Assembly: GCA_013359255.1 (NCBI GenBank)
Contig: JABWCF010000009.1
Location: 1-64,000, forward strand
Reading direction: 5' to 3'
From: Flavobacteriales bacterium
GTDB lineage: Bacteria > Bacteroidota > Bacteroidia > Flavobacteriales_E > Vicingaceae
Length of the DNA: 64,000 bases
The notes beneath the pieces are model-generated. The model saw only the letters and a program-made list of their open reading frames with translations, ran no database searches and was not told the origin of the DNA. Shown piece after piece: positions 6,101 through 64,000 of the stretch (positions within the stretch are counted from its first letter, which is position 1; every line of letters starts with the position of its first letter). Made by a program: the position numbers and the translations under genes.

Positions 6101-7771
6101 CTAAAATGAGTAAGTTAGGCCACCCAACACATTAAATCGCATGGTGGTGTAATCTTGCCAACGTTGATAGCCCTTTGATAGGAGGTTATTAAAGTTAACA
6201 AAGGCAGAAATGCGTTTCGTGTAACGGTATTCAATACCGATGTTTGCATCTATCCAACCTTCAATCCTAACAGCATTCTGAACCATTTCGAATCCGGTAG
6301 TAGTTTCAACTCTTTCAAAAGTGCGAACATATTGTTTGTCTATTCCGAAAATATCTAGTCTAATAATTATTTTATCTGCCAAATCGTAAATGGAAGAAAT
6401 GTTGGCTTTAAAATTAGGTCTGTGCCAAACTTCTTTTTGATTTCTGGTAGCAAACATATTGTAGTCGGTTGTAATTAAAAACCTTAGTTTTTCTCTGTTT
6501 TGAAAAGATATTTCAGTTCTTAGGTTCGTAACATCAACCGTATCGTATACTAAATCGAATTTGTTACGAAGTATTTCGGAGTAATCTTTTACAAACATGG
6601 CCATTCCGGCTATTTGACTGTAATTGGCTGCTACATTGAAAGAAACTTTTGAGCTGAAATTTCCTCTGATACCAATATAACCATGGTAACGTGTGTTTTC
6701 ATTAATCAGGTTAAGTGATGAACGAACAAAAGGATTTTGTTGTACAAAATAATCGAAGTTGGTTCTTTTTAAATTTCCTGTAATTCCTAAGTAGGGAATT
6801 ACAATTTCTGAGATTAGATTGTACCGGAATTCGGCATTGGGGTAAAATCTGAACTTAGCCACATTAGCTAATTCTGCTGTTATATTTAAGCCTACATTTA
6901 ATCGCCATTTACGCGACATGCTGGTTATTCCTGGCTGAATGCTGATAATAGAATTTGAAAGAGTATCTGTAGCACTCGAATATTTATTGTAATCGATGGT
7001 GGTTTTTAAGTGGTAGTAATCGAAATCAAAATAGCGGCCTATATTGGCATCTATTTTGGCATAATGTTCTCCGGTGTTGTATAAATCGTAAATGTATTTG
7101 TAGTTCGATTTTATATCGTAGCGGTAAACCGATGAGTCCGCAAGATTACTAAGCAATCCGACCTTTCCTCCGAATGAACTGTAGTTTTGTTTCAATCCGG
7201 ATTTATCAATAATTTCGGGCGAAACCAAGGAGTCCATACCGTAATAGTGTACTACATTTCTACTGTAAAATCCATCGCCATAGAGGGTATGCCTTTTTAA
7301 GAATTTTTTTCCGTAAATATTTAGTTTATTTTCGCTGAAACTGCTGTAGTCAATATTGCTTATTCCATTCGAAGAAAAATGCTTTGCATTTATTCCAAAG
7401 GAGTATGATTTATTCCGCACAGAATTGTAATATATTTCTGCCAGTGGAGTGGTATTGTTTCCAATGCCAGCCTTTATGTAACTGTGATAAAGTTTTACCA
7501 AAGGCTCTCCTTTTATCTTTGCTGGCTCAATAGATATTATACTAAAAGGCACAATGGCTCTTGTATTTAAGAATAAATAATTTAATGAAGGAATAATTTT
7601 TCCGGTATCGCTGATAGAAGGATTATCTTTTATTTTAAAGGCATCGGAAATAACGGGTTCGTATGGTTTTACTACAATAAAGGTGTCATTTACATTTTGA
7701 AGAAATGCATTTTTACTGTAGAATAATCCTATAAGTAACAAAAACAAGTATGAAATTTTATTTTTTTTCAT
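6101..7771 (-). CDS. outer-membrane beta-barrel protein
   Basis: A 556-residue protein with an N-terminal signal peptide (ends about NAFLQ), a short plug-like segment with VVKPYEPVISDAFK, then alternating hydrophobic/polar strands and many Tyr/Asn residues to a C-terminal aromatic, GGLTYSF, typical of an outer-membrane barrel assembled by BAM. It resembles the barrel half of TonB-dependent receptors but is shorter and has no recognisable TonB box or full plug. It starts 4 bp after the stop of the 1022-aa TPR gene, so the two are an operon and probably work together in the envelope. Transported substrate, if any, unknown. Confidence 0.75.
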   Translation of the reverse strand: MKKNKISYLFLLLIGLFYSKNAFLQNVNDTFIVVKPYEPVISDAFKIKDNPSISDTGKIIPSLNYLFLNTRAIVPFSIISIEPAKIKGEPLVKLYHSYIKAGIGNNTTPLAEIYYNSVRNKSYSFGINAKHFSSNGISNIDYSSFSENKLNIYGKKFLKRHTLYGDGFYSRNVVHYYGMDSLVSPEIIDKSGLKQNYSSFGGKVGLLSNLADSSVYRYDIKSNYKYIYDLYNTGEHYAKIDANIGRYFDFDYYHLKTTIDYNKYSSATDTLSNSIISIQPGITSMSRKWRLNVGLNITAELANVAKFRFYPNAEFRYNLISEIVIPYLGITGNLKRTNFDYFVQQNPFVRSSLNLINENTRYHGYIGIRGNFSSKVSFNVAANYSQIAGMAMFVKDYSEILRNKFDLVYDTVDVTNLRTEISFQNREKLRFLITTDYNMFATRNQKEVWHRPNFKANISSIYDLADKIIIRLDIFGIDKQYVRTFERVETTTGFEMVQNAVRIEGWIDANIGIEYRYTKRISAFVNFNNLLSKGYQRWQDYTTMRFNVLGGLTYSF

Positions 7772-7775
7772 TCAA

Positions 7776-10700: not shown

Positions 10701-10844
10701 TTTTTGTGCGGCACTATATTTTTCTTTATCAAATAATTCGAGGGCATTTCGATAATCCTTATCGGCACTAAAATAAACAGCCGTTTGTTGGGAATAAAGT
10801 ATTCCTGAAAGAAATAGATACGATATAAAAAACAGTTTATGCAA
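7776..10844 (-). CDS. large periplasmic TPR-repeat protein
   Basis: A 1022-residue protein with a signal peptide (LFFISYLFLSGILYSQ) followed by about 20 tetratricopeptide-like repeats through the whole length (recurring A-x-Y-x-L-G / A-x-x-x-F-x-x-x-Y-P signatures, as in YESFL-like and YbgF/Tol-Pal-associated proteins). The C-terminal 50 residues are charged and Glu/Asn-rich. Exported to the periplasm, probably a scaffold for protein-protein contact. It is followed at 4 bp by the beta-barrel gene, and the divergent neighbour is an FtsE-like ATPase; I recall the same three-gene neighbourhood in other Bacteroidota. Exact function unknown. Confidence 0.8.
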   Translation of the reverse strand: MHKLFFISYLFLSGILYSQQTAVYFSADKDYRNALELFDKEKYSAAQKKFNEVIEKTNDKYSEVRINAEYYSAICALELFNADAELALKKFIEIYPESPKANLANFQLGKFYFRKKIWDNVLFWFNKVDTYELTASENLEYKFKQGYAYFMKETYATASKLFYDVKDTESEYAPAATYYYAHISYINGNYETAYQHLKKLESDEQFSRIVPYYMAQILFLQNKYEELILVAKPLMDTANPKRSGDIAKLIAQSYYQLNKFDEAIPFLIRYKQTATKINRDDYYVAGYCYYKIGKCSDAIPQFKAVTNGNDSLAQIAYYHLGECFLKEGNKKYAQDAFRSASKMNFNEVIKEDALFTYAKLSYEISFHPFNDAILAFEEYINTYPNSKKLDQAYEYLVGVYFTTQNYKAALESLERIKNRGVKLNDAYQKISYYRGIELFNDLKFTEAIEHFNKSLAVKTDKNIAAATVYWKAEAYFRLSEFNKSIQGFKDFLFEPGAVNFEHYHVANYALGYNYFKTKQWTEAITWFRKYTQNDKLPKSVKLNDAYNRIGDCYFITKQYNIAIEYYDKAIFVGLLDVDYAMFQSAMANGVEKNNKEKSSLLLTLIKSYPNSHYTDDAYYELGEAYQMMNQQEKAFDAFKKVIDAFPSSSYISKAYNKIGLIYYNKQQDELALNAFKKVVSDYPGTTEAKEALLKIKKIYIDNEDIAGYENYIKSVPFANESKSSLDSALYEVAEKNYFAGNCEKAVKGFASYLEKYPKGNFSLNAHYYKADCEYKAGYLNEALIGFNHVIAFPKNKFTDLALLHAATIYYKNNQLQQALTLFNTLEKTAELPDHIFNAQLASMRIHFALNNYQETINYCSVIVSKDKIDESIKQEAHLLYAKSSQALNNDAKALEQFRYIENANSKFGAEAKYNIANILYAKGEYKNSEKTIFELVNKFSSYEYWVAKGFILLSDNYVAMNEIYQAKQTLKMVIENHKGTDELVDVAKEKLRIIEENEAGKTGRKSNENESNGFEIKYNETK

Positions 10845-11020
10845 GAATAATCGCTTTGCTATGGTAAGGGGTAAAATTATACAGTATTAAAGACTACCCT
10901 CAGAAAGGAGGGGTAAGTTATCAACGAAAAAATGTTGAAATTATTTTAAACAAGGGGTTCCTCTCTCTTCTGAAATACGAAACTTTATCGTTGGCAGAAA
11001 AAACTTCTACCCCTTCTATT

Positions 11021-11686
11021 ATGTCTGATACTATTATTTCTCTCAGCGATGTAAGAATTTTTCAGGATACAAATCTTATCCTTTATGAAGTAAACATAGA
11101 GATAAAAAAAGGGGAGTTTATCTATCTTATTGGAAAAACAGGAAGCGGGAAAAGTTCTTTTTTAAAAACCTTGTATGGCGAATTATCCTTAAAAGAAGGG
11201 CATGGTACTGTTTGTGGGTTTGAGCTTTTTAAATTGAAAAGAAAAAATATTCCATTTTTAAGAAGAAAAATAGGCATTGTTTTTCAGGATTTTCAATTAC
11301 TAACCGACCGCTCGGTTGAAGAGAATTTATTTTTCGTATTAAAAGCAACAGGGTGGAAAGATAAAGCTAAAATAAAACATAGAGCTATAGAGGTATTAGA
11401 AAGCGTAGGGCTTGGAACAAAAGCCTATAAGATGCCACACGAACTTTCGGGTGGTGAGCAACAACGTATTGCTATTGCACGAGCTTTGCTTAACAATCCG
11501 GAATTAATTTTGGCCGATGAGCCTACCGGCAATCTCGATCCGGAAACATCCGAAGAAATTATGAAACTTTTATTCAAGATAAGTAATGAGGGAAAAGCTG
11601 TAATTATGGCTACGCACGATTATTCGATAATGGACAAATTTCCTTCTCGTACAATGAGATGTGAAGCAGGAAAACTAATACTATAG
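11021..11686 (+). CDS. ftsE: FtsE-like ABC transporter ATPase
   Basis: A 221-aa ABC ATPase of the FtsE/LolD class. Walker [12 protein letters not shown]-loop VFQDFQLL, signature [15 protein letters not shown], Walker [14 protein letters not shown] and switch His in MATHDYS are all present. FtsE pairs with the FtsX permease to control cell-wall hydrolases at the division site; no ftsX is adjacent. The frame is open from a TTG at 10991, but the ATG at 11021 ([11 protein letters not shown]) gives the normal family start and is chosen. It is divergent from the TPR gene and converges on the phosphatase gene with only 3 bp between stops. Confidence 0.85.
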
Positions 11687-11689
11687 AAA

Positions 11690-13777
11690 TTAAATTTTAA
11701 CACCAATGATGCAGATATCATCTAACTGCTCGTATTCTCCTTTCCATTTTTCGAAGTTATCCTGAATAGCTGAAAATTGTTCTATCATTGGTAAATAAGA
11801 TAATTCGGATAACATTTTTTTCAGGTTTCTTGTTTTAAATTTTTTTCCTGTTTCTCCTCCAAACTGGTCGGCATACCCATCGGTAGAAAAATACAAAGTG
11901 TCTCCTTCGGCTAAATCGACCGTGTATAAATTAAAAGGTTTTTCATGACCAAAATAATTTCCTACCGGAATATTATCGTACTGCAGAGTGAGTATTTCTC
12001 CGTTTTTAGCAATATAATTTTTATGATTTGCCGAGGCATAGTATAATTTTTTAGACTTAACATCTATTCTTCCTAAGGAAATATCCATTCCATCGGCTCC
12101 CTGGTAATCCGGGTCGGACGATTTGAGTGATACAACAATTTTTTCACGCAATACATTAAGTGCCTCATTGGGCATTTGTATTTTCATTTCATTTACAATT
12201 TGATTGATGTAATTAATGCCTAATAAACTCATAAATGCTCCGGGCACTCCGTGCCCTGTACAATCCGCTACTGCAAAATAAAAATTATCGTTTGTTTTGT
12301 GTGCCCAATAAAAATCACCGCTTACAATATCCCTAGGTTTAAAGAAAATAAAACTGTCTTTAAATGATTCGGTAAAAACCTCTTTGTTTGTTAGCAATGC
12401 CTGTTGTATTTTCTGGGCATAGTTAATGCTATCTACTATTTCTTTGTTTTTGGCTTCTATTTCTTGTTTTTGTAATGTAAGCAAATTGTTTGCTTTGTTT
12501 TTTAGTTGATATCTACTGTAAAGCACAAAGGTTAAAATAGCAATTACAACAAGGATTCCTCCCGAAAAGTAAATCATGCTCTGTTTTCTGCTTATTTCCG
12601 ATTGTTGTAACTGATTGTTTAGTTCCAGTTGTTTTATTTGACTTTCTTTTCTTTCACTCTCATATTTTTCTTCTAATTGAGAAATATATGTACTGGAAGT
12701 GTTATACAAAGAATCTTTTAACAATATATATCTTTTATAGTAATCGAATGCTTTTTGGTAGTTGTTCTCTAACAAGTACACATTAGAAAGAATTTGACTG
12801 GCATCGAGTACAATTTCTTTCATTCCTAATTGTTCGGCACTGCTAATTCCTTTTAATGCGTATTCCTTTGCTTTAGGAAATTTTTTCCAATCGTACATTA
12901 GACGAGAAAGAGTAATATTGGTTTGTGCCATACCAAATTTGTCTCCAATTTTTTGCCTAATCAGTAAAGCTTCAGTTAAATATTTTTCGGCTGTATCGCG
13001 AGCATTAAAGCGATTCATTATTCCTCCAATGTTGTTAAATAGTTGTGCTCTTAATTTAAATTCGTTTTCAGGACAATTTTGCAACGCATCTTTATAATAG
13101 CTTAAGGCATCTCTTAATTTTCCGTTTTTATCTTTTATTAAACCTATGCTATTGTATATTACCGCTATGTGTTTATTATCTTTTTTTGCTTTAGCAATTT
13201 TAACAGCTTCTTCAAAATTCACCATTGCTTTTTCATATTGGCCAATATCGTTGTATATTAGCCCTATGTTTATCATACAATCGAGAATTAACTTATTGTT
13301 TTTTATTTTCTCGGAGATTTCTTTGCATTTAATAAACCAATTAATTGCCTCTAAATAATCGCCTTTAAAATAAAAACAATTGCCTACTGTGGTGTAGGTT
13401 TCTGCCAGAAATTGATCTTCGTTAAGTTGCTTATAAATAGTTATTGAACGGTATAAATTATTTTGGGCATTTTGATAATCTGCTTTGTTTAAATAGCACT
13501 CTCCTATTTTTTGGTAGCTTCGGCCAATTAAAAATTTGTTTTCTATTTTTTGAGCTAATTTTAGTGCATCATTGGCGTACCTTAAAGCCTCTTCACTCTT
13601 AGTATTCACTGTTTCTGATGCAAGTTGTAATACAACTTCAATTTTATCTTTATCTGATTTAGATTTTTGTAAAGCCTGTAATAAACTGTCTATCGTTTGA
13701 TTTGAAGCAAAAAGACTATTGGCTGAAAATAAAAAAATAAGTACAGAATAATATATTTTTTTTTCTTTAACCTTCAT
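11690..13777 (-). CDS. TPR sensor with SpoIIE-type PP2C phosphatase
   Basis: A 695-aa membrane signalling protein. Signal peptide at the ATG start (MKVKEKKIYYSVLIF..), about seven TPR repeats in the periplasmic part, one transmembrane helix (IYFSGGILVVIAILTFVLY), a short coiled coil, and a cytoplasmic SpoIIE/PP2C phosphatase with the metal-ligand motifs GDFYWA, ADCTGHGVPGAFMS and FSTDGYADQFGG. Such proteins in Bacteroidota are thought to dephosphorylate anti-sigma-factor antagonists or gliding/secretion regulators. An upstream in-frame TTG (13801) would add eight residues ahead of the signal peptide and was rejected. Target unknown. Confidence 0.85.
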   Translation of the reverse strand: MKVKEKKIYYSVLIFLFSANSLFASNQTIDSLLQALQKSKSDKDKIEVVLQLASETVNTKSEEALRYANDALKLAQKIENKFLIGRSYQKIGECYLNKADYQNAQNNLYRSITIYKQLNEDQFLAETYTTVGNCFYFKGDYLEAINWFIKCKEISEKIKNNKLILDCMINIGLIYNDIGQYEKAMVNFEEAVKIAKAKKDNKHIAVIYNSIGLIKDKNGKLRDALSYYKDALQNCPENEFKLRAQLFNNIGGIMNRFNARDTAEKYLTEALLIRQKIGDKFGMAQTNITLSRLMYDWKKFPKAKEYALKGISSAEQLGMKEIVLDASQILSNVYLLENNYQKAFDYYKRYILLKDSLYNTSSTYISQLEEKYESERKESQIKQLELNNQLQQSEISRKQSMIYFSGGILVVIAILTFVLYSRYQLKNKANNLLTLQKQEIEAKNKEIVDSINYAQKIQQALLTNKEVFTESFKDSFIFFKPRDIVSGDFYWAHKTNDNFYFAVADCTGHGVPGAFMSLLGINYINQIVNEMKIQMPNEALNVLREKIVVSLKSSDPDYQGADGMDISLGRIDVKSKKLYYASANHKNYIAKNGEILTLQYDNIPVGNYFGHEKPFNLYTVDLAEGDTLYFSTDGYADQFGGETGKKFKTRNLKKMLSELSYLPMIEQFSAIQDNFEKWKGEYEQLDDICIIGVKI

Positions 13778-13843
13778 GCTTTTTTCGAAATAACGGTGCA
13801 AGTTACAAAATTTTTATACTCAAATCATAAAAAACAGAGTTCC

Positions 13844-14953
13844 TCATTGTAATGCATTGATAACTTGTGAAATTGCTATATCTGAAGAATAACTATTTTC
13901 TAAATTCTGACTTCTTTGCTTAATCTCCATTTCCGAAAAATTTTGACTGAGCAATTCGTTTATTTTTTGTTTCATCTCTTTGGAATTATTGGCTATTTCA
14001 CAATTTTTTTCTAATCCGGTATTTTCAACCATTGGGGTATTTACCAAACAAAATCTGCCGGTATATAATGCAACTAAAAGCTTAAGTTTTACTCCTGTGT
14101 TCTGAAAAGTTGGAAGCACATTAATATGTGCATTGCTAACCAGTTTCCAAATTTCTTCGGTATCAACATCGGGGAGCAATTGAATGTTTTTATATTTTTT
14201 TACGGCATTTTTTAATTCATTAGAAGGTGCATTCCCCGCAATAATTAATGTTGCCCCCAAATCGTTAAAAATTTTCTCTGTTAAATACATGGCGGCCTCG
14301 TTATTTTCTGAAACAGCCAAGTTTCCGTGATATAAACAAAAGGCACTTTTTCCGGGTGTGCTGATTACGTAGTTAAAAGGATGAAACGGAGGAAGGATTT
14401 GTACGTTATTATGAAAAGATAAAAAATAATTCTTATCGTTGGGTGATATGGCAAATACAAGGTTGGCGTACTGAAGTTTTTGCTCAAACCTTTTTAGCTT
14501 GAAAGCTTCCAATTTAAAGAATATTTTTTTGAAAAGGTTTTTCTCTGAACATGCTAAACCTCGATAGTAATCACTCTCTACATTGTGCATACGTACTATC
14601 TTTTTTCTTTGTTGCAGAGCTTTATGGTTTAATAAATAACAACAGTGTATTCCTTCAAAAAAAATGGGAGAGGAGTCTTTTAATACATTTTTCAATAGCT
14701 GATTATTGCTTCTGGTTACAACAATATAGGGGAAAAATGAAAACTGGTAAAGCAATCCCGACTTTCTTTTATAGTAAAAAACTTCTTTGCATAACTCGTT
14801 TAATTCGTTCTGCTCTCCCCTACCATACTCAAAACAATGTAGTGTTACGCTAATTCCATTTTCTTTTAGTTTTTTTAATTTATAGTATATATCTATTACT
14901 CCTCCATAACTAGGCGGAAAAGGTACATCAAAAGATATTAGATGAATATGCAT
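13844..14953 (-). CDS. glycosyltransferase, GT4-like
   Basis: A 369-aa glycosyltransferase of the GT-B fold. The N-terminal domain opens MHIHLISFDVPFPPSYGG, the classic donor/acceptor loop of group 1 enzymes, and the C-terminal half has LYHGNLAVSENNEAAMYL and the ADP/UDP-sugar-binding type segment LLPTFQNTGVKLKLLVALYTG. The chosen ATG (14953) lies 1 bp after the TGA of the upstream glycosyltransferase; an in-frame TTG at 14971 was rejected. Together the two genes form a pair, probably for a surface polysaccharide or glycolipid. Sugar specificity cannot be read. Confidence 0.8.
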   Translation of the reverse strand: MHIHLISFDVPFPPSYGGVIDIYYKLKKLKENGISVTLHCFEYGRGEQNELNELCKEVFYYKRKSGLLYQFSFFPYIVVTRSNNQLLKNVLKDSSPIFFEGIHCCYLLNHKALQQRKKIVRMHNVESDYYRGLACSEKNLFKKIFFKLEAFKLKRFEQKLQYANLVFAISPNDKNYFLSFHNNVQILPPFHPFNYVISTPGKSAFCLYHGNLAVSENNEAAMYLTEKIFNDLGATLIIAGNAPSNELKNAVKKYKNIQLLPDVDTEEIWKLVSNAHINVLPTFQNTGVKLKLLVALYTGRFCLVNTPMVENTGLEKNCEIANNSKEMKQKINELLSQNFSEMEIKQRSQNLENSYSSDIAISQVINALQ

Positions 14954-14954
14954 A

Positions 14955-16055
14955 TCAGATAAAGGTTGCAAAAATAGCCTTTAACTTTATTTCTTCTTTT
15001 TGCCAGCAAAGATTTTGGGCTGCTACCTTTGCATTTGTGCTCCATTGATTAAGTTCTTTTTTATGACTAAGCATTTGATTTAAAGCTGATGCTATTTCTG
15101 TTTCGGTATGTTTACTTAAAACAATTCCTATATTATATTGTTCTACCATTTTTTTCATTTCGGGCAAAGGCGAAACCAATACCGGTAGTCCGGCATGTAT
15201 GTAATCAAATAATTTATTAGGGAGTGCAAAACGGTAGTTTAACCCCATGTCTTCTTCTAATGAAACGCCTATCGTGGCTTTACAGGTGTACTCGCGTAAA
15301 TTCATAAAAGAAACTCTTCCGACAAATACCACCTTATGACTTAGATTTTTTTTTGCAACCCGTTCTTTCAACTCATTCGTAATATCGCCATCGCCAATAA
15401 TGTGCAATATGGCATTCTCTACCAAGGGCATTGCTTCTATTAGTTTTTCGAGCCCCCTACCCATATTCAAGGCCCCCTGATAGAGCACAATATTTTTTTT
15501 ATTATTATCTTCCAATGTTGTGCTCTCAATATACTCGGGCAAATTTCTTATTACTTTAAAATCTGTATTATATTTCGTTTTGTATATTTTGGCTATGGAA
15601 TCACTCACTGTAAATGCATTTTTAATACGAGGCAAAATGAAGCGCTCTATTTTTTCCCATATTTTTTTTATTCTTGGTCGATTAATTAATTCTGGAACCT
15701 CCGTAAAATATTCATGACTATCATACACTAAGGGTATTCGTTTTATCCGAGATACAAGAAAGTTGGCCGGCAAAGTGTCTAAATCGTTAGAAAGCAACAC
15801 ATCGGTATTTGTAAAAAGCAAATAAAAAAATAAACGAATATTATAAAAAGCATAAAATAAAAAGCCTTTGTTTATTGGCAATAAAAATCGTTTAGTGGAA
15901 TACAAACGCGGTTGAAGCAAAAAATCAGAAGGCCATTTTCTTCCTACCAGTGTAACCTTAAAACCCATAGAATGCAAGGTTGTACATGTCCTATGAACAC
16001 GCTGATCTGTAACCAAATGGTTGGTAACCGATACCACCACATGCTTTTTTTTCAT
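14955..16055 (-). CDS. glycosyltransferase family 4 protein
   Basis: A 366-aa group 1 glycosyltransferase. Features: N-terminal VVVSVTNHLVTDQRVHRTC, a short hydrophobic membrane-associating segment (FLFYAFYNIRLFFYLLF), YDSHEYFTEVPEL, donor-site VLYQGALNMGRGLEKLIEAM and GDGDITNELK, and the C-terminal FALPNKLFDYIHAGLPVLVS with the conserved Glu/Asp region. It is the first gene of the two-gene glycosyltransferase operon and is divergent from murB. Probably acts at the cytoplasmic face of the inner membrane; acceptor unknown. Confidence 0.85.
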   Translation of the reverse strand: MKKKHVVVSVTNHLVTDQRVHRTCTTLHSMGFKVTLVGRKWPSDFLLQPRLYSTKRFLLPINKGFLFYAFYNIRLFFYLLFTNTDVLLSNDLDTLPANFLVSRIKRIPLVYDSHEYFTEVPELINRPRIKKIWEKIERFILPRIKNAFTVSDSIAKIYKTKYNTDFKVIRNLPEYIESTTLEDNNKKNIVLYQGALNMGRGLEKLIEAMPLVENAILHIIGDGDITNELKERVAKKNLSHKVVFVGRVSFMNLREYTCKATIGVSLEEDMGLNYRFALPNKLFDYIHAGLPVLVSPLPEMKKMVEQYNIGIVLSKHTETEIASALNQMLSHKKELNQWSTNAKVAAQNLCWQKEEIKLKAIFATFI

Positions 16056-16157
16056 AACGCTAAAATAGTATTATATGGCCAAATAGAATCAGAAAACTAT
16101 TGAAGTAGGATTTTTATTGCAAAAACAATTATATGATACGGAATCGTAAATTCGCAT

Positions 16158-17174
16158 ATGAAAATTAAAGAAGAGATTTCGTTAAAACCCTATAATACTT
16201 TTAATATCAGTGCCAATGCAAGGTATTATACCGAATTAGAAAGCACCGAAAATATTTACGAATTTATTCATGAAAAAAAATTTCAAAATATACCGCAATT
16301 AATTCTTGGCGGAGGTAGTAATATTCTTTTAACCGGCAATTTTGATGGTATTGTTTTAAAGAATCAATTAATGGGCGTTCGCCTTATACAAGAAACACCG
16401 GAACATTATTTTATTAAAGCATCGGCCGGAGAAAACTGGCATCGTTTTGTTTTGTATTGCATAGAAAATAACTACGCAGGATTAGAAAATCTTTCGCTAA
16501 TTCCTGGCTGCGTGGGAGCTAGCCCTATGCAAAATATAGGTGCTTATGGCGTAGAAGTTAAGGATTTAATACATGAAGTAGAAACTATTCATTTGGGCAG
16601 TGGGCAAACACAAGTATTTGATAATCCTTCGTGCAAATTCGATTACCGAAGCAGCGTTTTTAAAACCTCTTATAAAAATCAATTCATAATTACATCTGTA
16701 ATTTTTAAACTAAATAAAAAACCGAATTATACCATTACATACGGGTCTATTGAAGAAGAATTAGATAAAATGGGCATTAAAGAACTAAGTATTCGGGCAA
16801 TATCCGATGCCGTTTGCCGTATTAGAAAAAGCAAGTTACCCAACCCATCCGAAATAGGAAATGCCGGAAGCTTCTTTAAAAACCCTGTAGTGCCTATAAA
16901 AATAGCAGAAGAGTTGAAAGAACATTATCCTGATATTCCCATTTATACAGTAAACCCTACAAATTGCAAATTAGCAGCCGGGTGGCTTATAGAAAAATGT
17001 GGATGGAAAGGAAAAACAATAAAAAACTGTGGAGTACATACGAAACAAGCTCTTGTATTAGTAAACTACGGCAATGCCAGCGGAAAAGACATTCTTGAAT
17101 TAGCCAACCGCATCATTGCCTCCGTAAAAGACACATTTCATGTTGAACTTGAAAAGGAAGTAAACATTATTTAA
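16158..17174 (+). CDS. murB: UDP-N-acetylenolpyruvoylglucosamine reductase
   Basis: The FAD- and NADPH-dependent second step of UDP-MurNAc synthesis for peptidoglycan. 338 aa, the length of the E. coli-type (type I) enzyme. FAD-binding LGGGSNILLT and LSLIPGCVGASPMQNIGAYGVE; YRSSVFK; the catalytic Ser in NAGSFFKNPV; and type I-specific LAAGWLIEKCGWKG before the C-terminal Glu region. A TTG-started gene follows at 27 bp, then a SanA-like gene, probably a three-gene envelope operon. Confidence 0.97.
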   Translation: MKIKEEISLKPYNTFNISANARYYTELESTENIYEFIHEKKFQNIPQLILGGGSNILLTGNFDGIVLKNQLMGVRLIQETPEHYFIKASAGENWHRFVLYCIENNYAGLENLSLIPGCVGASPMQNIGAYGVEVKDLIHEVETIHLGSGQTQVFDNPSCKFDYRSSVFKTSYKNQFIITSVIFKLNKKPNYTITYGSIEEELDKMGIKELSIRAISDAVCRIRKSKLPNPSEIGNAGSFFKNPVVPIKIAEELKEHYPDIPIYTVNPTNCKLAAGWLIEKCGWKGKTIKNCGVHTKQALVLVNYGNASGKDILELANRIIASVKDTFHVELEKEVNII

Positions 17175-17201
17175 ACCGCTTATTTAACTTACTTTTTACC
17201 A

Positions 17202-18089
17202 TTGATACAATACCTTAACAAAGAAAAAATTGATATCGAAAAATGGAACCGGTGTGTTGCTTCTTCTCAATGCAGCCTGCCCTATGCCTACACTTATTAT
17301 CTAGATACCGTATGTAAAAATTGGGGCGGATTAGTATTAAACCATTACGAAGCCGTAATGCCCTTACCTTATGCTTTTAAATTTGGCTTACCTTATATCT
17401 ATCAGCCTTATTTTACACAACAACTTGGCATTTTTACAGCTAATGATATTGATAAAAATTTAATTCAAGCTTTTTTAAAAAATATACCCAAAAAATTCGT
17501 GTATATTTCCACTCAACTCAATCATAAATGCTTTGCCGCACAAGGTATAAAATCTATAAAAACCAGAAAAAATTGCATATTAAATCTCAATAAACCCTAC
17601 CAAGAATTATATTCCCGTTTTACAGAAAACACCAAAAGAAATATAAAACAAGCCGATAAAAATAACCTGCAAATTAAAATAAACGCCCTTCCTGCCACTG
17701 AATATGCCCTCTTCTACAAAATAAACAACCCAATTGAACATTCTAAAAAAACACATCTTTTATTGGAGAAAATAATAAACATCACCTCAAAAAACAATAT
17801 GGGCGAAACATGGAGCGTTCATTCCATACAAGGCCAAATACTTGCATTTGCACACTTACTAAAAGAAAAAAACAGAATCATATACATTGCACCAGCCACC
17901 AACCCGGAAGGAAAAAAACAAAAAGCCATGTTTCTTTTAATTAACGAGTTTTGTAAAAAGAATGCAACCCACCGTATTCTACTAGACTTTGAAGGTTCTG
18001 AAATTCCAAATGTGGCACGATTTTATGGGGGATTTAACGCAGAAACAGAGTTGTACCCTCTTTACACTAAAAAGATATTTTCAATTTAG
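17202..18089 (+). CDS. FemAB/GNAT-like acyltransferase family protein
   Basis: A 295-aa protein that looks like a Bacteroidota FemAB/GNAT-fold acyltransferase: N-terminal half with LPYAYTYYLD..GGLVL and MPLPYAFKFGLPYIYQP, central ENTKRNIKQADKNNL (substrate loop), and C-terminal AMFLLINEFCKKN..LDFEGSEIPNVARFYGGF. Substrate unknown; murB next door hints at cell-wall chemistry. The start is TTG at 17202 (MIQYLNKEKID): no ATG occurs before residue 49, which would delete the first strand, so the rare start is favoured. Confidence 0.6.
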   Translation: MIQYLNKEKIDIEKWNRCVASSQCSLPYAYTYYLDTVCKNWGGLVLNHYEAVMPLPYAFKFGLPYIYQPYFTQQLGIFTANDIDKNLIQAFLKNIPKKFVYISTQLNHKCFAAQGIKSIKTRKNCILNLNKPYQELYSRFTENTKRNIKQADKNNLQIKINALPATEYALFYKINNPIEHSKKTHLLLEKIINITSKNNMGETWSVHSIQGQILAFAHLLKEKNRIIYIAPATNPEGKKQKAMFLLINEFCKKNATHRILLDFEGSEIPNVARFYGGFNAETELYPLYTKKIFSI

Positions 18090-18114
18090 AAACTACGATA
18101 AGAAAAAGTAATTC

Positions 18115-18783
18115 ATGAGGTATTTAAAAAAAATATTTTATTTCATTAAAAGAAAAAAATGGTATTTTATAACCCCTGCTCTTTCATTTATTCTGTTAAG
18201 TCTTTGGGCTAACCTAAGCATCACAAGTCAAACAAAAAACTTTTTATATTCCGATATAAACACCGTTCCAAGCCATAAAGCCGCATTAGTATTAGGCACA
18301 TCAAAATACCGAAGCAATGGAGAAAAAAATTTATACTTTTTATACAGAATACAGGCGGCTGCATTGCTTTACAAAACCCATAAAGTAACCTACATTATAG
18401 TAAGTGGCGATAATAGCACCATGCAATACAATGAACCCAACACCATGAAAAAAGAACTCATTAAATTAGGCATACCCGATTCCGTAGTTTACCTAGATTT
18501 TGCCGGTTTCAGAACCCTCGATTCCGTGGTGCGTTGCAAAGAAATTTTCGACCAAAAGGAGTTTATTATTGTTTCTCAAAAATTTCACAACGAACGGGCT
18601 GTTTTTTTAGCAAGGAAACACCATATCGAAGCCATCGGATTTAATGCAAAAGATGTTGATGCCTATTACGGATTTAAAACCAACCTGCGAGAATACTTTG
18701 CCCGCATCAAAGTATTTATTGATTTAATTACCGGAAAAGAACCCAAATTTTTAGGCGAAAAAATAGAATTGGGAAAAAACTAA
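18115..18783 (+). CDS. SanA/YdcF-like DUF218 membrane protein
   Basis: A 222-aa protein with one N-terminal transmembrane helix (WYFITPALSFILLSLWANL) and a periplasmic DUF218 domain: AALVLGTSKYRSNG, IIVSGDNS, FAGFRTLDSVVRCKEIF, and IIVSQKFHNERAVFLARKH. In enterobacteria SanA affects envelope permeability to vancomycin at high temperature; the chemistry is not known. It ends the murB operon. Confidence 0.85.
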   Translation: MRYLKKIFYFIKRKKWYFITPALSFILLSLWANLSITSQTKNFLYSDINTVPSHKAALVLGTSKYRSNGEKNLYFLYRIQAAALLYKTHKVTYIIVSGDNSTMQYNEPNTMKKELIKLGIPDSVVYLDFAGFRTLDSVVRCKEIFDQKEFIIVSQKFHNERAVFLARKHHIEAIGFNAKDVDAYYGFKTNLREYFARIKVFIDLITGKEPKFLGEKIELGKN

Positions 18784-18895
18784 ACCACCCGAAACACTTA
18801 GTAGACTGTCTGCCTGCAATATCTAACTTTTTTCTGAAAGATTTACAACTAATAAACGATTTAATGCCTTTTATTGAAATCAAGTAAATGGTAAA

Positions 18896-57684: not shown

Positions 57685-57945
57685 TTACATCTGATTATTT
57701 CTCGTTCTATTAAGAAGTTCGGAAATATCCACTTCCAGCGCTTCTGCAATCTTTGCCAATGTTTCCAGAGAAGGTTGCACTTTATTCCCGCACCATTTAG
57801 AAACCGTTCCCGGTGTTACTTTTAATTCCTTGGCCAGCCAGTTATTCGATCTGTCCTTTTCAGCCAGAACAACCCGGATTCTATTAAGTGGCTTTTTAGC
57901 TGTTTTTCCCATATTAGGGTCAAATATATAGTCGAATTTTTTCAT
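57685..57945 (-). CDS. XRE-family helix-turn-helix regulator
   Basis: An 86-aa protein, nearly all HTH_3: KPLNRIRVVLAEKDRSNNWL then AKELKVTPGTVSKWCGNKVQPSLETLAKIAEALEVDISELLN. Start ATG 57945 (MKKFDYIF) or ATG 57912 (MGKTAKKPLN); the second is closer to typical family starts and lies just below a minus-strand TATATTTG box. It faces the plus-strand accessory genes across a palindrome-rich spacer, the layout of an element's repressor. Confidence 0.85.
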   Translation of the reverse strand: MKKFDYIFDPNMGKTAKKPLNRIRVVLAEKDRSNNWLAKELKVTPGTVSKWCGNKVQPSLETLAKIAEALEVDISELLNRTRNNQM

Positions 57946-57952
57946 GAAAATT

Positions 57953-58045
57953 GGTTGTAAAAAGATTATAAATAATTACTAAAACATAATTATTGATTCT
58001 TTAATGAATAATATTGTTTATATTTGGAACTATTATTTTACAACC
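57953..58045. promoter_or_regulatory. nested inverted repeats between XRE and plus-strand genes
   Basis: GGTTGTAAAA (57953-57962) is the inverse of TTTTACAACC (58036-58045); inside them AATAATTA (57971-57978) mirrors TAATTATT (57987-57994). A plus-strand -7 box TATATTTG lies at 58019-58026. The symmetric set suggests operators for the XRE protein on both sides of the divergent promoters. Confidence 0.45.
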
Positions 58046-58081
58046 ATTTATTGTAGAAAAAAGACAAAAAATTGGAATATT

Positions 58082-58393
58082 ATGATTAATAATATGAATG
58101 AAAGGGAACTTATCCTAAGCCTTATCAAAGACGATCTCGTTAATGTACGACTGGTACATGGACTTGAAAACCTGGGATTGGATTCCGGCAACTATTACCT
58201 GCACTTGAGCGAAACCATTTTTAAGCTGATAGGAATAACCGTTGATGAGGAGGATTTCTTTGAACAGTACATAGATGAATGCAAGACGGTTATTAATATA
58301 AATATTTTCGAATATCCCGAATTATTAAACAGTCTTGCGCTCAGCCTATACAATAAACTCATAGAACATAAATCCGAAACCCATGAACCGTAA
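58082..58393 (+). CDS. small accessory protein, unknown
   Basis: A 103-aa acidic, helical protein (NERELILSLIKDDLVNVRLVHGLENLG; HLSETIFKLIGITVDEEDFFEQYIDEC) without recognised domain. ATG 58082 or 58094 are plausible; the longer frame from 58004 would start ahead of the -7 box at 58019-58026 and is rejected. Ends 11 bp into the next gene. Confidence 0.55.
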   Translation: MINNMNERELILSLIKDDLVNVRLVHGLENLGLDSGNYYLHLSETIFKLIGITVDEEDFFEQYIDECKTVININIFEYPELLNSLALSLYNKLIEHKSETHEP

Positions 58394-58574
58394 AACAATT
58401 AAGAAAATACTTGCTGCCACTGCTTACATAATTCTATTGCCCCTGATTGCAATAGAAATACTGATAAAAAATCCTGCCCATTTTACTCAACAGATTCGGT
58501 TGGGTTTCCAGGTACTGCTTTTTATCGTTGATTTGGGAAGTCATAAAATAGCCGGAGATAAAAAAGGTCTCTAA
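58383..58574 (+). CDS. 63-aa membrane protein
   Basis: A 63-aa protein with one or two hydrophobic stretches (ILAATAYIILLPLIAIEILIK and GFQVLLFIVDLG) and charged ends. It overlaps the upstream gene by 11 bp, which implies co-translation. Unknown function. Confidence 0.5.
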   Translation: MNRKTIKKILAATAYIILLPLIAIEILIKNPAHFTQQIRLGFQVLLFIVDLGSHKIAGDKKGL

Positions 58575-58726: not shown

Positions 58727-59527
58727 ATGGCCACCAGCTCCTACATATCCGTTAACCTTACGCAAAAGCAGCTTGAATTTTTGCAGCTGCTGGATTATCA
58801 TGAAATAGACATTTTTACTATTGATACAATTGAAAAATCAATAGGTAAAAAAGTAAAAAATCTCAACGAGATATTAGAAAACCTTGTTCAGAAAAAATTA
58901 CTCTCACGAATTGAAAAAGGAAAATATTGCCGGTATAACTTCCGGGATGAAATGACCATCAGCAATTACCTGGCAGAAGATGGTATCGTTGCCTATTGGT
59001 CCGCTTTAAACAGGCATGGCCTTACCGAGCAGTTTCCCAATACCATATTTGTACAAACAGCTAAAGATAAGAGAGAAAAGAAAGTGTTCGGTGTGGATTA
59101 CAAATTCGTTCGTGTTGCAAAAAGAAAACTTACAGGATTTGATATTCATGGAGCCGGCAACCATCAATTCAGGATGAGCAGTATGGAAAAAACGATAGTG
59201 GATTGTTTCGATCTGCCTCAATACTCAGGCGGATACGCTGAATTGATCCGTGCGTTTAACAATGCCAAACTGGATGCAAAAAAAATGGTTAAATACTGTA
59301 AGGCTATCAATAACATAGCAGCAACCAAACGAATTGCATATTTGGCCGAACTGTTTCAAAAACCGGACTTCGGTGTTTTCCTAAACTATGCAAAGAAAAT
59401 CCTGAATGAAAAATACAACCTGTTTGATTCTATTGGCAGGGAGGAAGGGGAATACGTTAACAAATGGAAGCTACGTCTGAATATCAGTGAGGAAGATATT
59501 TTAGAGATATGCAATAAAATGTATTAA
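58727..59527 (+). CDS. abiEi: AbiEi-like antitoxin / transcriptional repressor
   Basis: A 266-aa AbiEi-family protein. N-terminal winged helix (QKQLEFLQLLDYHEIDIFTI; LNEILENLVQKKLLSRIEKG, YCRYNF) followed by the AbiEi_4-type body (GIVAYWSALNRHGLTEQFP, MEKTIVDCFDLPQYSGG). In known systems it represses the operon and blocks the AbiEii toxin. TAA overlaps the toxin ATG by one base (TAATG), so the two are coupled. Confidence 0.85.
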   Translation: MATSSYISVNLTQKQLEFLQLLDYHEIDIFTIDTIEKSIGKKVKNLNEILENLVQKKLLSRIEKGKYCRYNFRDEMTISNYLAEDGIVAYWSALNRHGLTEQFPNTIFVQTAKDKREKKVFGVDYKFVRVAKRKLTGFDIHGAGNHQFRMSSMEKTIVDCFDLPQYSGGYAELIRAFNNAKLDAKKMVKYCKAINNIAATKRIAYLAELFQKPDFGVFLNYAKKILNEKYNLFDSIGREEGEYVNKWKLRLNISEEDILEICNKMY

Positions 59528-60390
59528 TGATTTCACAAAGAGAAATAGAACATCTTTCAGAAGAACTGAATCTTTCCAAAAGCACGATAGACAAAGATTG
59601 GGTTTTAGGACACTTCCTGGATGCAATTTACTCCATTAGTGAACTTAAAAAAGTGTTGATTTTTAAGGGAGGCACTTGCTTGAAAAAGTGTTACCTGCCG
59701 GATTATCGTTTCAGCGAAGACCTTGATTTTACTGTCACTGATAAAGATTTTGTATTTACGGATAAGATGCTTGATAAAGTGATTAAACTTGTTAATAAGC
59801 GCACAGGTATCGCTTGCCATGTTGTTTCGCTAACGGATTTGATTTTTAAAAATCAGAAAACAGGTTATGAAGCCATTATAAAATATTGGGGAGCAGATCA
59901 TCCCAAAAATCAAATCCCTCCCTCCCCGGATAGATGGCAGACATCCATCAAAATTGAAATTATTCTTTACGAGCTGATGGTATTCCCGGCAGCAAAGAAA
60001 AAATTATTCCATCCTTATTCAGACAAACTAACACCTCATGCACAGAAAATAGCCTGTTATTCCATAGAAGAAGTTATCACAGAAAAAATACGTGCATTGA
60101 TCCAGCGGAAATATACCGCTCCCAGGGATTATTATGATATCTGGTACTTAAGCGGTAATTACGATGACCTGGACAATAAAAAAATTGTAAGTGCATTTTA
60201 TAAAAAAATGAAATACAAAAACATTGAGTTTACTGGAGTTGACCAGCTTATTAACTCAGACAGTGAAAGAATATTAGAGAAAAACTGGAAAAATAGTTTG
60301 AGCCATCAGATACCTGAAGGAAAATTACCTGATTTCACGACTGTTATTTCAGAAGTGAAAAAATACTTTAAGATCCTCTTTACAAAATAG
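59527..60390 (+). CDS. abiEii: AbiEii-like nucleotidyltransferase toxin
   Basis: A 287-aa AbiEii/AbiGii-type nucleotidyltransferase (DUF1814). Core LIFKGGTCLKKCYLPDYRFSEDLDFT: the GG..K motif and the D-x-D of the polymerase-beta fold; later KIEIILYELM, EEVITEKIRALIQRKYTAPRDYYDIWYLS. Members inhibit growth, some by modifying tRNA or using GTP; target here unknown. A third gene follows after 1 bp. Confidence 0.88.
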   Translation: MISQREIEHLSEELNLSKSTIDKDWVLGHFLDAIYSISELKKVLIFKGGTCLKKCYLPDYRFSEDLDFTVTDKDFVFTDKMLDKVIKLVNKRTGIACHVVSLTDLIFKNQKTGYEAIIKYWGADHPKNQIPPSPDRWQTSIKIEIILYELMVFPAAKKKLFHPYSDKLTPHAQKIACYSIEEVITEKIRALIQRKYTAPRDYYDIWYLSGNYDDLDNKKIVSAFYKKMKYKNIEFTGVDQLINSDSERILEKNWKNSLSHQIPEGKLPDFTTVISEVKKYFKILFTK

Positions 60391-60391
60391 A

Positions 60392-61255
60392 ATGCCGCAG
60401 AAAAGAAAAAAAAGGAGAGAGCCTTTAAAAATCGGAGAAAATCCGAACGAATGGGAATTTGAAAAATATGAATATGACCTGGATATTATTGACATATATC
60501 GTCAGTTAGAGAAGCTGTTAAATACCTCCTCTGAATTAAGACCTGATATAAACAAAAAAGAGTATTTAGAAAACCTTAAATACAGTATTGAGTATTACTG
60601 CAAGTTCAGAAACATTAATTTTAATCTTCACTTCAATACCGGAGATATTATTATTCCTTCTACCGAGGAATATTATGTGAATACATTAGGTATGGCTCTT
60701 ATCTGCTGGGATTTCTATAAAATACGAGCTCTGTTAAATCACCAGAAAGAAAAATATCTTGGAAAAGAAGATTTTGTGAAGATGGTGGAATTTGGAGCCT
60801 ATTCCATCATGGTTAATAATTCTCCCTTTGCAGACATAAAAGAGCGCCAACAGCTTATTATGCAGTGGGTAGAGGAACAGCAGCAAGATAAAAAGCAATC
60901 AGGAAAAATCATACAAGGCAAAAAAACGAAACCGGCAGAAATTAAAAAATGGAAAGATCTCTTTTTAGACAAGGCTCAGGCAGAAAGTATTATTAAAATA
61001 CTTAAGACGCATGAGGTAGTAAACAAAGACGGAACCTGGATCGGCCTCACAGACAAGAACACAGAAATATTAGCCTTAATAGATGTTCTGCGGGAAAAGC
61101 GATACATTAAAAAATATTCTCAAACCTTAACAGCCAAACTTTTCTGTGAAAAATTTGAGTTGAATCTGAGTGATCGTTCCCTTCGCACCAAAACCCAGGC
61201 ATATTACGATAATCTTTCTGAATACCAGTGGATCATTCCCGATCTGAAATCCTGA
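60392..61255 (+). CDS. third gene of the AbiE operon, unknown
   Basis: A 287-aa soluble protein beginning MPQKRKKRREPLKIGENPNEW, with a basic, coiled middle (QQQDKKQSGKIIQGKKTKPA) and a C-terminal part NKDGTWIGLTDKNTEILALIDVLREKRYI..LSDRSLRTKTQAYYD that resembles tails of mobile-element proteins of Bacteroidota. No enzymatic motif is visible. It starts 1 bp after the toxin stop and is therefore part of the operon. A role as a second regulator, toxin target selector or unrelated element gene is possible. Confidence 0.6.
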   Translation: MPQKRKKRREPLKIGENPNEWEFEKYEYDLDIIDIYRQLEKLLNTSSELRPDINKKEYLENLKYSIEYYCKFRNINFNLHFNTGDIIIPSTEEYYVNTLGMALICWDFYKIRALLNHQKEKYLGKEDFVKMVEFGAYSIMVNNSPFADIKERQQLIMQWVEEQQQDKKQSGKIIQGKKTKPAEIKKWKDLFLDKAQAESIIKILKTHEVVNKDGTWIGLTDKNTEILALIDVLREKRYIKKYSQTLTAKLFCEKFELNLSDRSLRTKTQAYYDNLSEYQWIIPDLKS

Positions 61256-61373: not shown

Positions 61374-61679
61374 ATGGCTGTTAAAAACCTTGTCAAAATG
61401 AACGAACAATTAATCGTTACCCTGAAAGTTGGTGAGCTAAAGAACATCATAGATGAAAGTGTCACCAATGCTCTTACAAAAGTCCCGCAAAAACCGGAAG
61501 AAGAAACCCTCCTGAAGCGGAAAGAAGTAGCCCAAATCTTCGGAGTTTCACTTGTCACCCTTAATCAATGGATGCGTGATGGTAGGATACCCTGCCATCG
61601 TATTAACACGAGGGTATTTTTTAAACGCACGAAGGTGATGGAAGCCTTAAACACCGTGAAAAAATACGGCAGAAGATGA
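61374..61679 (+). CDS. excisionase-like HTH (MerR/HTH_17) protein
   Basis: A 101-aa protein with an N-terminal coil (VTLKVGELKNIIDESVTNAL) and a C-terminal helix-turn-helix of the excisionase class: LLKRKEVAQIFGVSLVTLNQW then MRDGRIPCHRINTRVFFKR. Such proteins sit next to primase/Rep genes in Bacteroidota mobile elements. ATG 61374; an internal ATG (61398) is also possible. It overlaps the primase gene by 4 bp (ATGA). Confidence 0.85.
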   Translation: MAVKNLVKMNEQLIVTLKVGELKNIIDESVTNALTKVPQKPEEETLLKRKEVAQIFGVSLVTLNQWMRDGRIPCHRINTRVFFKRTKVMEALNTVKKYGRR

Positions 61680-63718
61680 AGACGGATTATAAATACCAAT
61701 TTGAAAAAGCTCCGGCTAAAAAGGGTAAATGCCCCAGCTGCGAACACAAAGGCGAATTTCGCTATTATGTTGGTTTACCACGTGAGTATGGCAAATGCGA
61801 ACGTGTGAATAATTGCGGCTATCATAAAAAGCCCGATGAAGCTGTTAGGGTCAATAATGAAATACCAATGAAAAAATTGGAGCCAAAAATTATTTTTCCG
61901 GATGCTGAGTTATGCCGTCTTGCTATTAACAATCAGGCTTCCAGCTTTCACCTTTTCTGTACAGGAGAGAAATTGAATATTTCAAAAGCACATCTTGAGA
62001 AATGGAACGTTGGCAGCAGGTTGAATGAACGTAAGAATAGTATTGAAACCGCTTATGTGTATCAGAACATCCATCAGAAATATCTTAACATCCGGTATTT
62101 TGAATATTCCAACAATGGGAAAAGAAATAAGAATAAAAATCCTTATTCCTTAAAAGCTCCCGACACCAACACTAAATATTCCATTTGTTTGTACGGAGAA
62201 CACTTGTTAAGCAAGGATAAAATCATTTGCCTTGTAGAAAGTGAAAAGACAGCGGTTATTGCCAGTTTCTTTTATCCTGATTTTGACTGGCTCGCTACCG
62301 GGGGCAAAAGCGGATTAACCGATGAGAAAATTCATGTGCTGTTTAATCGTGAGATCTATTACCTGAATGATGCTGACAAGGCAGGAAATAAAAATAGTAC
62401 CATTGATAAGCTAAAAGGCTATCAGCTCAATTTTAAGAAGATTGATTTATTTCCTGAGCGGAACGATGGTTATGATATAGCAGATGCAATCATTGATGGA
62501 ATACAACCTGAAATAAAACCTTCAGCCAAAACCAATTCTGTAAGCTATGATCCGGTTCCTGTACAGGAAATACCCCATAAGAAAATTTCAGCCTTCGAGA
62601 AAGTAGAAATCTATTTACGGGAGCTATACGACATACGCTATAATGAGGTTTCCAATGAAATAGAATGTAAAGCTAAAGAAGAAGGCGGGTTTAAAAAGAT
62701 CAACGAAAACAATATTTACCGGCTCCTGCAACACAATAATATTAAATTTTCACTCACTAATATCTCTGCATTGTTACGTTCCGACTTTGTTCCGGTGCAT
62801 AACCCATTTAAAGATTATTTTGAAGGCCTGCCTACATGGAATGAAGAAACAGGCGAGGATTATATAGATAAATTGTCCGGCTATATAAAAGCGAAAGATC
62901 AGCAGCGCTTTAAAAAACATTTTAAAAAAATGCTGGTGCGCTGCATTGCCTGTGGCTTGATGGATGATGTATTCAACAAACATGCTTTTATCCTGGTGCA
63001 TGAAAAACAAAGCACGGGCAAAACAACCTTTTTGCGCTGGCTATGTCCTCCCGCTCTTAAAGAATATTATACCGATACATTTATTGTCGGAAAAGACGGG
63101 GAAATGAGCTTGTCGGATAATATGTTTATTAACCTGGATGAGTTATCTACTTTAAGTAAACAGGACATTAATGCGTTAAAAAGTTCTTTCAGCAGGGTAA
63201 ATATCCGCCAGCGAAGGCCATTTGACCGGACCATGTCCAATATGCCCAGGAGAGCCAATTTTGTGGGATCAACAAATAAGGCAGAATTTTTAACGGATGA
63301 AACCGGATCGGTACGTTGGCTCTGCTTTGAAATTGAGAGTATAGACTGGAATTACAATAAGGATATTGATATTAATTCAGTATGGAGCCAGGCCTATTCT
63401 CTCTTTAAAGCCGGATTCAAGTACGAATTAACCGCAGATGAGATCATAGAGAATGAAAGCGCCAATAAGGATTACCAGATCACTACAGCAGAAATAGAAT
63501 TAATACAAAAGCATTATACCCCTGCCACCAAGGAAAAACACGAAGTTTTTTACACTTCTTCAGAATTTCAAAATAATCTCTCGGAGAAATATCCTCACAT
63601 ACAATTGAACACGAATAATATTGGGAAAGCCCTCAAAGTATTAGGATTTATGAAAAGCCAAAAATACAATGGCAACTATCCGATTAAAGGATATTACAGC
63701 AATTTTATAACAGAATAA
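61676..63718 (+). CDS. primase-helicase of a mobile element (VirE/VapE-type)
   Basis: A 680-aa replication protein. Residues 15-50: zinc finger of the primase type (CPSCEHKGEF..CERVNNCGYHK); about 170-250: Toprim-like region (IICLVESEKTAVIASFF, YYLNDADKAG); about 370-600: superfamily-3-like helicase of the VirE/VapE family, with degenerate P-loop HEKQSTGKTTFLRW, Walker B MFINLDELS and sensor NFVGSTNKAEFL; C-terminal tail for winged-helix binding. Such proteins start replication of integrated elements. Overlaps the HTH gene by 4 bp. Confidence 0.88.
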   Translation: MKTDYKYQFEKAPAKKGKCPSCEHKGEFRYYVGLPREYGKCERVNNCGYHKKPDEAVRVNNEIPMKKLEPKIIFPDAELCRLAINNQASSFHLFCTGEKLNISKAHLEKWNVGSRLNERKNSIETAYVYQNIHQKYLNIRYFEYSNNGKRNKNKNPYSLKAPDTNTKYSICLYGEHLLSKDKIICLVESEKTAVIASFFYPDFDWLATGGKSGLTDEKIHVLFNREIYYLNDADKAGNKNSTIDKLKGYQLNFKKIDLFPERNDGYDIADAIIDGIQPEIKPSAKTNSVSYDPVPVQEIPHKKISAFEKVEIYLRELYDIRYNEVSNEIECKAKEEGGFKKINENNIYRLLQHNNIKFSLTNISALLRSDFVPVHNPFKDYFEGLPTWNEETGEDYIDKLSGYIKAKDQQRFKKHFKKMLVRCIACGLMDDVFNKHAFILVHEKQSTGKTTFLRWLCPPALKEYYTDTFIVGKDGEMSLSDNMFINLDELSTLSKQDINALKSSFSRVNIRQRRPFDRTMSNMPRRANFVGSTNKAEFLTDETGSVRWLCFEIESIDWNYNKDIDINSVWSQAYSLFKAGFKYELTADEIIENESANKDYQITTAEIELIQKHYTPATKEKHEVFYTSSEFQNNLSEKYPHIQLNTNNIGKALKVLGFMKSQKYNGNYPIKGYYSNFITE

Positions 63719-63730
63719 TTCCCCAATACA

Positions 63731-63874
63731 TTACTTCGTTACTAAATTCTTCTAAAAGCATTGACTTCACTGTATAATTAACTTAGTAATGTTATTCTTT
63801 CAACCTTACTAAGTACCTTACTTCATTACTAAAAAATCGCCCTCCATTTTGTTAGTAACGTAGTAAACTTAGTA
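63731..63874. repeat. iteron-like TTACTTCGTTACTAA repeats
   Basis: TTACTTCGTTACTAA (63731-63745), TTACTTCATTACTAA (63818-63832) and an inverted copy TTAGTAACGTAGTAA (63852-63866) differ at one base each. Shorter CTTAGTAA (63782-63789) and TTACTAAG (63806-63813) pair with each other, and ACTTAGTA recurs at 63867-63874. They sit just downstream of the primase-helicase gene in AT-rich DNA, as an origin-like iteron array would. Confidence 0.55.
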
Positions 63875-63943
63875 GCTTACTTTACTGATATTTCAAAAAA
63901 TTATAAAGAGAATTTTTTCGTTTTGTAAAAAATAAAAAATCAA

Positions 63944-64000
63944 TTTACTTGAGTAAAAGAATTATAATAACTCGAGTAATTTATACGCATTTACTCGAGT
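63944..64000. promoter_or_regulatory. ACTCGAGT palindrome cluster at the window end
   Basis: TTTACTTGAGTAAA (63944-63957), AACTCGAGTAA (63969-63979) and TTACTCGAGT (63991-64000, cut by the window end) share one palindromic core. The first is a 14-bp near-perfect inverted repeat. The family also occurs at 18913-18924. Probably operators of a gene starting beyond the window, or part of the origin-like array. Confidence 0.5.

Follow-up and report, generated by a model that had tools for sequence, protein, structure and literature searches.

In staphylococcal SaPI elements, the C-terminal domain of Rep recognizes iterons directly downstream of the rep gene, and in SCCmec elements the direct repeats that follow the Cch2 operon are bound by this protein (both according to the accessible sections of PMC7581432). 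The SaPI initiator is a self-loading helicase (same source). The primase-helicase alpha of phage P4 has a winged-helix origin-binding domain (accessible sections of PMC10516667). For SaPIs, it is known already that the origin can directly follow the gene of its initiator. Here, we describe a repeat cluster behind a primase-helicase gene of a Flavobacteriales bacterium, found in a stretch of 64,000 nucleotides that was analyzed as a whole and is called the window below. The arrangement is best read as an iteron origin that the initiator helicase encoded next to it recognizes, similar to those of the staphylococcal SaPI and SCCmec elements.

Like the SaPI rep-ori, this locus has iterons directly downstream of a helicase gene; unlike it, the element resides in the Bacteroidota, the N-terminal half of its protein carries a zinc ribbon and DUF6371, and its recombinases are large serine recombinases. 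With SCCmec it shares a replication helicase, repeats downstream of it and then large serine recombinases, which the CcrB, CcrA and CcrC models match weakly. However, all these matches are far below the family cut-off, the best one reaching 75.6 bits against 900. SCC elements insert in rlmH, whereas the island described here lies in a tRNA-Met gene and carries toxin-antitoxin genes and stress cargo. The likeness to P4 alpha would concern the predicted winged helix; the P4 domain was not among the structural matches listed for this protein, which included the RFX and ASFV tail domains, and the repeat words of P4 differ from those found here. The Flavobacterium and Cellulophaga phages FPSV-S1, lotta8-2 and phi17:1 have a VapE helicase that is 34-44% identical and repeats in the gap behind its gene (borderline for phi17:1 in the repeat test described below, 4/300), but VirE-N and VapE are encoded there by separate genes, the genome is that of a phage and the repeat words are different.

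The initial annotation had pointed to three near-identical 15-mers, one of them inverted, to a mirrored pair of 8-mers and to an AT-rich setting directly after a replication gene, and all three observations were borne out. The 15-mers are TTACTTCGTTACTAA (63731-63745), TTACTTCATTACTAA (63818-63832) and, in inverted orientation, TTACTACGTTACTAA (63852-63866), the latter two each being one base off the first. They are the sole matches with up to two mismatches in the 64 kb; 100 shuffles contained 0.20 such matches on average and 2 at most, so that none (0/100) got to three. The mirrored 8-mers CTTAGTAA (63782-63789) and TTACTAAG (63806-63813) sit within 13-base inverted arms (63781-63793 and 63802-63814). 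The cluster starts 12 bases past the stop codon of the primase-helicase gene and extends to approximately 63885, including TTAGTA (63869-63874) and TTACTTTAC (63877-63885). The word TTAC builds the whole cluster, with forward copies starting at 63731, 63739, 63806, 63818, 63826, 63877 and 63882 and inverted copies at 63786, 63855 and 63863. Read along the plus strand, it consists of a forward iteron pair (TTACTTCG and TTACTAA, 63731-63745), a single inverted iteron on the minus strand whose spacing to the neighbors is conserved (CTTAGTAA, 63782-63789), a forward triple (TTACTAAG, TTACTTCA and TTACTAA, 63806-63832), a group of inverted iterons on the minus strand (TTAGTAAC, GTAGTAA and TTAGTA, 63852-63874) and the partial forward iterons TTACTTTAC (63877-63885). 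The A+T content is 63% in the primase-helicase gene, 70% from 63719 to 63880 and 86% in the 65 bases from 63881 to 63945, a stretch that is a candidate unwinding region. DnaA boxes have the motif TTWTNCACA; two exact copies were present in 4001 bases (at least two were found in 23 of 200 shuffles), none of them inside the repeat cluster, so that the box cluster expected of a DnaA-type origin is absent.

The gene preceding the cluster (61676-63718, plus strand) encodes the primase-helicase and putative initiator. Pfam returned a zinc ribbon (Zn_ribbon_16, residues 5-60), DUF6371 (residues 105-232), a VapE-like helicase (residues 393-601) and DUF5906. The helicase core is of the VapE/D5-like kind (PF05272, E 1.4e-31; PF19263, E 8.5e-7), a Walker A-like stretch (HEKQSTGKTT) is present, and PHROG annotates relatives of the protein as DNA helicase or primase. 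Among solved structures, 7pds ('Similar to D. nodosus vapE') is the closest in sequence, matching across the helicase core (E 4.4e-16). The zinc finger and the helicase of the initial annotation were found again by Pfam, whereas its Toprim domain was not, DUF6371 being returned; a Toprim label would rest on a motif alone. The start of the primase gene is overlapped by a gene for an excisionase-like HTH_17 protein (61374-61679, plus strand; Pfam and PHROG, TIGR01764 below cut-off).

The full-length model of the primase was discarded (mean pLDDT 45). A model of the C-terminal 106 residues, built from eight sequences, reached a mean pLDDT of 83, and its elements from residue 605 onwards are ordered helix, short strands, helix, helix, strand, strand, which is the order of a winged helix. 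VIA-align compared it to RFX5 (Z 8.6, 77 residues, 3.0 Å) and the RFX1 DNA-binding domain (Z 7.2, 70 residues, 2.3 Å), Z values of 7-8 being a range that unrelated models can also give, as well as to many winged-helix regulators (Z 5-7) and the ASFV PrimPol tail domain (Z 5.6). The latter has been likened to the P4 origin-binding domain and the Rfx1 domain (accessible sections of PMC10516667). Foldseek returned nothing at E 0.001 for this model, its top match being an RFX5 complex (E 0.062, not significant alone), and a sequence search of the C-terminal alignment against the PDB gave chance-like matches only. The C-terminus of the protein (residues ~605-678) is predicted to be a winged helix, which would suit a dsDNA-binding domain, as far as a fold can speak for a function.

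Four relatives of the primase were present in the genome collection (L010 93%, L011 89%, L013 51% and L012 49%). In the two closest, L010 and L011, the protein is complete and the repeat cluster is preserved, whereas the neighboring non-coding array has been rearranged. L012 and L013 have TTAC clusters at the equivalent place with changed words, in elements carrying tyrosine-type integrases (judged by eye). VapE relatives, many of them less than 50% identical and phages included, were analyzed with a de novo repeat test, in which the recurrence of 7-mers on either strand within 250 nt behind the VapE stop was compared to 300 dinucleotide shuffles; no word was preselected, and a locus passed when at most 1/300 shuffles reached the observed score. 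Altogether, 20 of 29 loci passed: 17 of the 26 distinct loci and all three IMG/VR viral contigs. These loci are partly dependent (L010, L011 and the window; L014 and L015 of one genus; L061 and L062). Dropped before counting were L054, whose downstream DNA is identical to that of L011, L005 (same place as L055), L009 (a match to residues 149-239 only) and L004 and L053 (own). Of the phage and plasmid records with matches, the analysis covered 3 of 480 and 3 of 77, respectively. For 11 of the 17 passing loci, no other stretch of the same locus matched the score; in the contig of the window, 4 of 153 other stretches score equally high.

The test was failed by L012 (70/300), L058 (143/300), L064 (33/300), L006 (60/300), L007 (234/300), L068 (41/300) and L069 (47/300), and L067 (4/300) and L070 (3/300) were borderline and counted among the nine not passing. 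The non-passing loci include a Prevotella plasmid (L069) and two Cardinium plasmids (L068 and the borderline L070), and this speaks against an origin, since plasmids are where one would most like to see it at this place. A query with the single primase protein gave no match in viral contigs, and a distant DNA search with the region gave none in 50,697 phage records. The repeat words differ between the loci: TTACTAA in the window, TAGGTAA in L014, L015 and L055, GTAGTAA in L056, L057 and L059, GTGTAAC in phage FPSV-S1, TGGAACA in phage lotta8-2 and GTGGTCA in L072. Related elements mostly have them as direct repeats with a spacing of 8-12 bases. More than 10 copies of a 10-base unit (ACACATTTAC) follow the putative origin region of the related element L015 (3218-3353).

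The spacing of the repeats is conserved as well. Counting the positions of TTAC (>) and GTAA (<) from the VapE stop, the layout is 12> 20> 67< 87> 99> 107> 136< 144< in the window, 26> 34> 79< 100> 110> 119> 169< 178< in L014, 25> 33> 79< 101> 111> 120> (137<) 171< 180< in L015, 6> 51< 72> 83> 92> 109< 118< in L055 and 2> 9> (29>) 56< 77> 88> 117< in L012. The common rule (forward, 45-48, inverted, 19-22, forward, 8-12, forward) fits seven of the 29 distinct loci from five lineages, namely the window, L010, L011, L012, L055, L014 and L015, and was found in 0/500 shuffles for each of them. It was derived post hoc from the loci that it fits and therefore describes a conserved spacing and is no blind prediction. 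L012 follows the rule, but its copies have no long exact words in common; L013, L056 and L057 have TTAC words that do not follow it. RFX proteins recognize an X-box with the half-site RGYAAC, which was counted post hoc 32 times over the 29 loci against 15.6 expected; an X-box reading is not claimed, since FPSV-S1 and lotta8-2 have no such half-sites despite clear repeats.

The cluster is part of an integrated island. The empty site was recognized in another genome of the genus (G005), where the flank 10189-18804 directly adjoins the flank 70126-75514 and the two meet at the 3' terminus of a tRNA-Met gene. The joins are CTTTGTAGCG (empty), CTTAGTAGAC (left) and TTTAGTAGCG (right), and the core GTAG common to all of them delimits an island of 51.3 kb (approximately 18805-70130). 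The left end (attL, core GTAG) was located at 18795-18819 on the plus strand by the empty-site comparison and a left-end 21-mer, of which the carrier genomes G000, G730 and G622 have a single copy each when up to three mismatches are allowed, while the reversed control occurs in none. Each of the two serine recombinases combines a Resolvase with a Recombinase domain; a zinc ribbon follows in the list of matches for both, but is below cut-off in the second, whose gene extends into the tRNA gene. An excised circle is plausible, given the integrated island, the two serine recombinases and the recognizable empty site in a congener. The cargo, judged by eye from the open reading frames, includes an ion-pump ATPase, universal-stress proteins and genes for biosynthesis, among them carbamoyl-phosphate synthase, purE/purK and biotin genes. 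An AbiEi/AbiEii toxin-antitoxin pair lies inside the replication block (58727-60390); DNA alignment shows that L011 has this pair and L010 lacks it. Another AbiEi-like gene, an orphan, is located between the two recombinases (L002 11726-12550). The island of L010, the closest relative, ends at a tRNA-Glu gene (17087-17159) and that of L011 at tRNA-Met, and related recombinases may therefore use different tRNA genes.

One island lacks the primase. A contig of G622 (L102) shares the island core: it has both serine recombinases, the AbiEi-like gene, the repressor and a relative of the open reading frame 58004-58393, together with the CTCGAG-type palindromes and the palindrome array. It aligns to the contig of the window at 57709-58469 and then again from 63934, showing the absence of one block that holds the primase, the repeat cluster, the AbiE genes, the HTH_17 gene and the open reading frame 60392-61255. 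No TTACT or AGTAA word was found in the 800 bases preceding the palindromes of L102, and G622, which is 99% complete, contains no primase match genome-wide at E 10, while the same query does match other genomes. This pattern of presence and absence, a single case, indicates that the iterons travel with the primase and the array with the recombinases. Beside the island core, L102 encodes a WYL-domain regulator and, after it, an operon of three genes that includes an ATPase-like protein of 905 aa (6965-12660); none of the PADLOC models matched the three genes, which are possibly a defence system.

Three CTCGAG-type palindromes (63945-63956, 63970-63979 and 63991-64002, the last one passing the window end) are kept in L102 and belong with the recombinase side and not with the iterons. 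The adjacent array, just past the window (contig C5 64040-64815, corresponding to L002 8040-8815), consists of about 30 degenerate palindromes in steps of about 25 bases, with the cores CTTAAG, CCTATAGG and CTTATAAG. It is also present in L010 (10420-11320), L011 (10420-11320) and L102 (5690-4900, minus strand), and is thereby kept in four islands with the same recombinases, in L102 even without primase and iterons. A spacing-aware score reached 53 in the contig of the window, 50 in L010 and 48 in L011, whereas the shuffles peaked at 33, 36 and 37 and other stretches at 28, 31 and 33, respectively; in L102 it was 37, compared to 27 and 32. A density scan of 20 further loci (15 recombinase and five primase matches, some of them short contig ends) revealed no comparable array, and no credible match to known RNA families was found in Rfam. 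Both strands of the array fold well (z -7.0 and -9.9, 20 shuffles each), and T-G and C-A mismatches at the five innermost positions are about equally common (31 and 26), so that nothing favors an RNA over a double-stranded site. The array and the three palindromes could perhaps be a second, unnamed kind of cis element, independent of the primase, that might act on the excised circle as a loading or segregation site for a dimeric DNA-binding protein, a suggestion that we regard as doubtful.

The iterons together with the A+T-rich stretch are very probably the replication origin of the island, and the primase-helicase encoded upstream its initiator. The proposal of an iteron-like origin in the initial annotation is supported. 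A lack of conservation of the repeats in relatives, which the annotation had named as refuting it, was not seen: the repeats are kept in L010 and L011, reappear with a changed word behind distant relatives and are missing in L102, where the primase is missing. The analysis shows the repeats, their fixed place with a changing word, the layout found in five lineages, the joint absence with the primase in one island and the predicted winged helix, whereas replication, excision and binding are inferred. The island would first be excised by the recombinases, and the C-terminal winged helix of the primase-helicase would bind TTAC-type iterons of either orientation. Its helicase core could form rings on the two oppositely oriented iteron groups, and these rings would melt the neighboring A+T-rich DNA; the N-terminal part of the protein would prime, and a host polymerase would copy the circle.

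Alternatively, the repeats could be operators, at which the primase-helicase or the HTH_17 protein regulates the operon or the downstream recombinase genes. Their place between primase and recombinases and an adjoining sigma-70-like site on the minus strand would suit such a function; however, promoter-like sites are not in excess (2 against a shuffle mean of 2.5), repeats still follow the helicase gene in phages and viral contigs whose downstream genes are different, L102 has recombinase genes but no repeats, and ten TTAC-type words in both orientations exceed the usual operator. We consider operators unlikely. With even lower probability, the repeats act in the transcript, as an RNA structure or a terminator behind the primase gene. 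The plus strand folds better than shuffles (z -4.1, 1/200 as good), but this is expected of any set of inverted repeats, no terminator-like site was found, Rfam returned for the surrounding 2.1 kb two matches on the other strand far below their gathering scores, and an RNA hairpin does not need the direct repeats 8-12 bases apart seen in related elements. That the repeats are attachment or recombination sites of the two serine recombinases present in the element is barely credible, since the attachment sites with their GTAG core sit at the island ends and L102 retains both recombinases without the repeats; we give a transfer origin (oriT) the same low probability.

Three points seem new: that the iteron origin extends to VapE elements and phages of the Bacteroidota, that the spacing is conserved, and that presence or absence is block-wise. 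In mostly non-subscription literature, no paper was found that joins VapE and iterons, which is weak evidence, none that links VapE, replication origin, primase and satellite, and nothing related on virulence-associated protein E and replication origin in Bacteroidetes. A review of integrative mobilizable elements covers Bacteroides NBU1, and the word 'primase' is absent from its accessible sections (PMC5704250).

The iteron origin proposed here can be tested in the wide range of Bacteroidota mobile elements and phages that have VapE-type helicases. Each helicase family has repeat words of its own, and the position of these words is fixed; the pairs of helicase and repeat are therefore a natural data set on origin recognition by winged-helix initiators, and they could allow the prediction of origins from helicase genes. 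A replicating stage, if real, would help to explain the persistence and spread of the 51-kb island.
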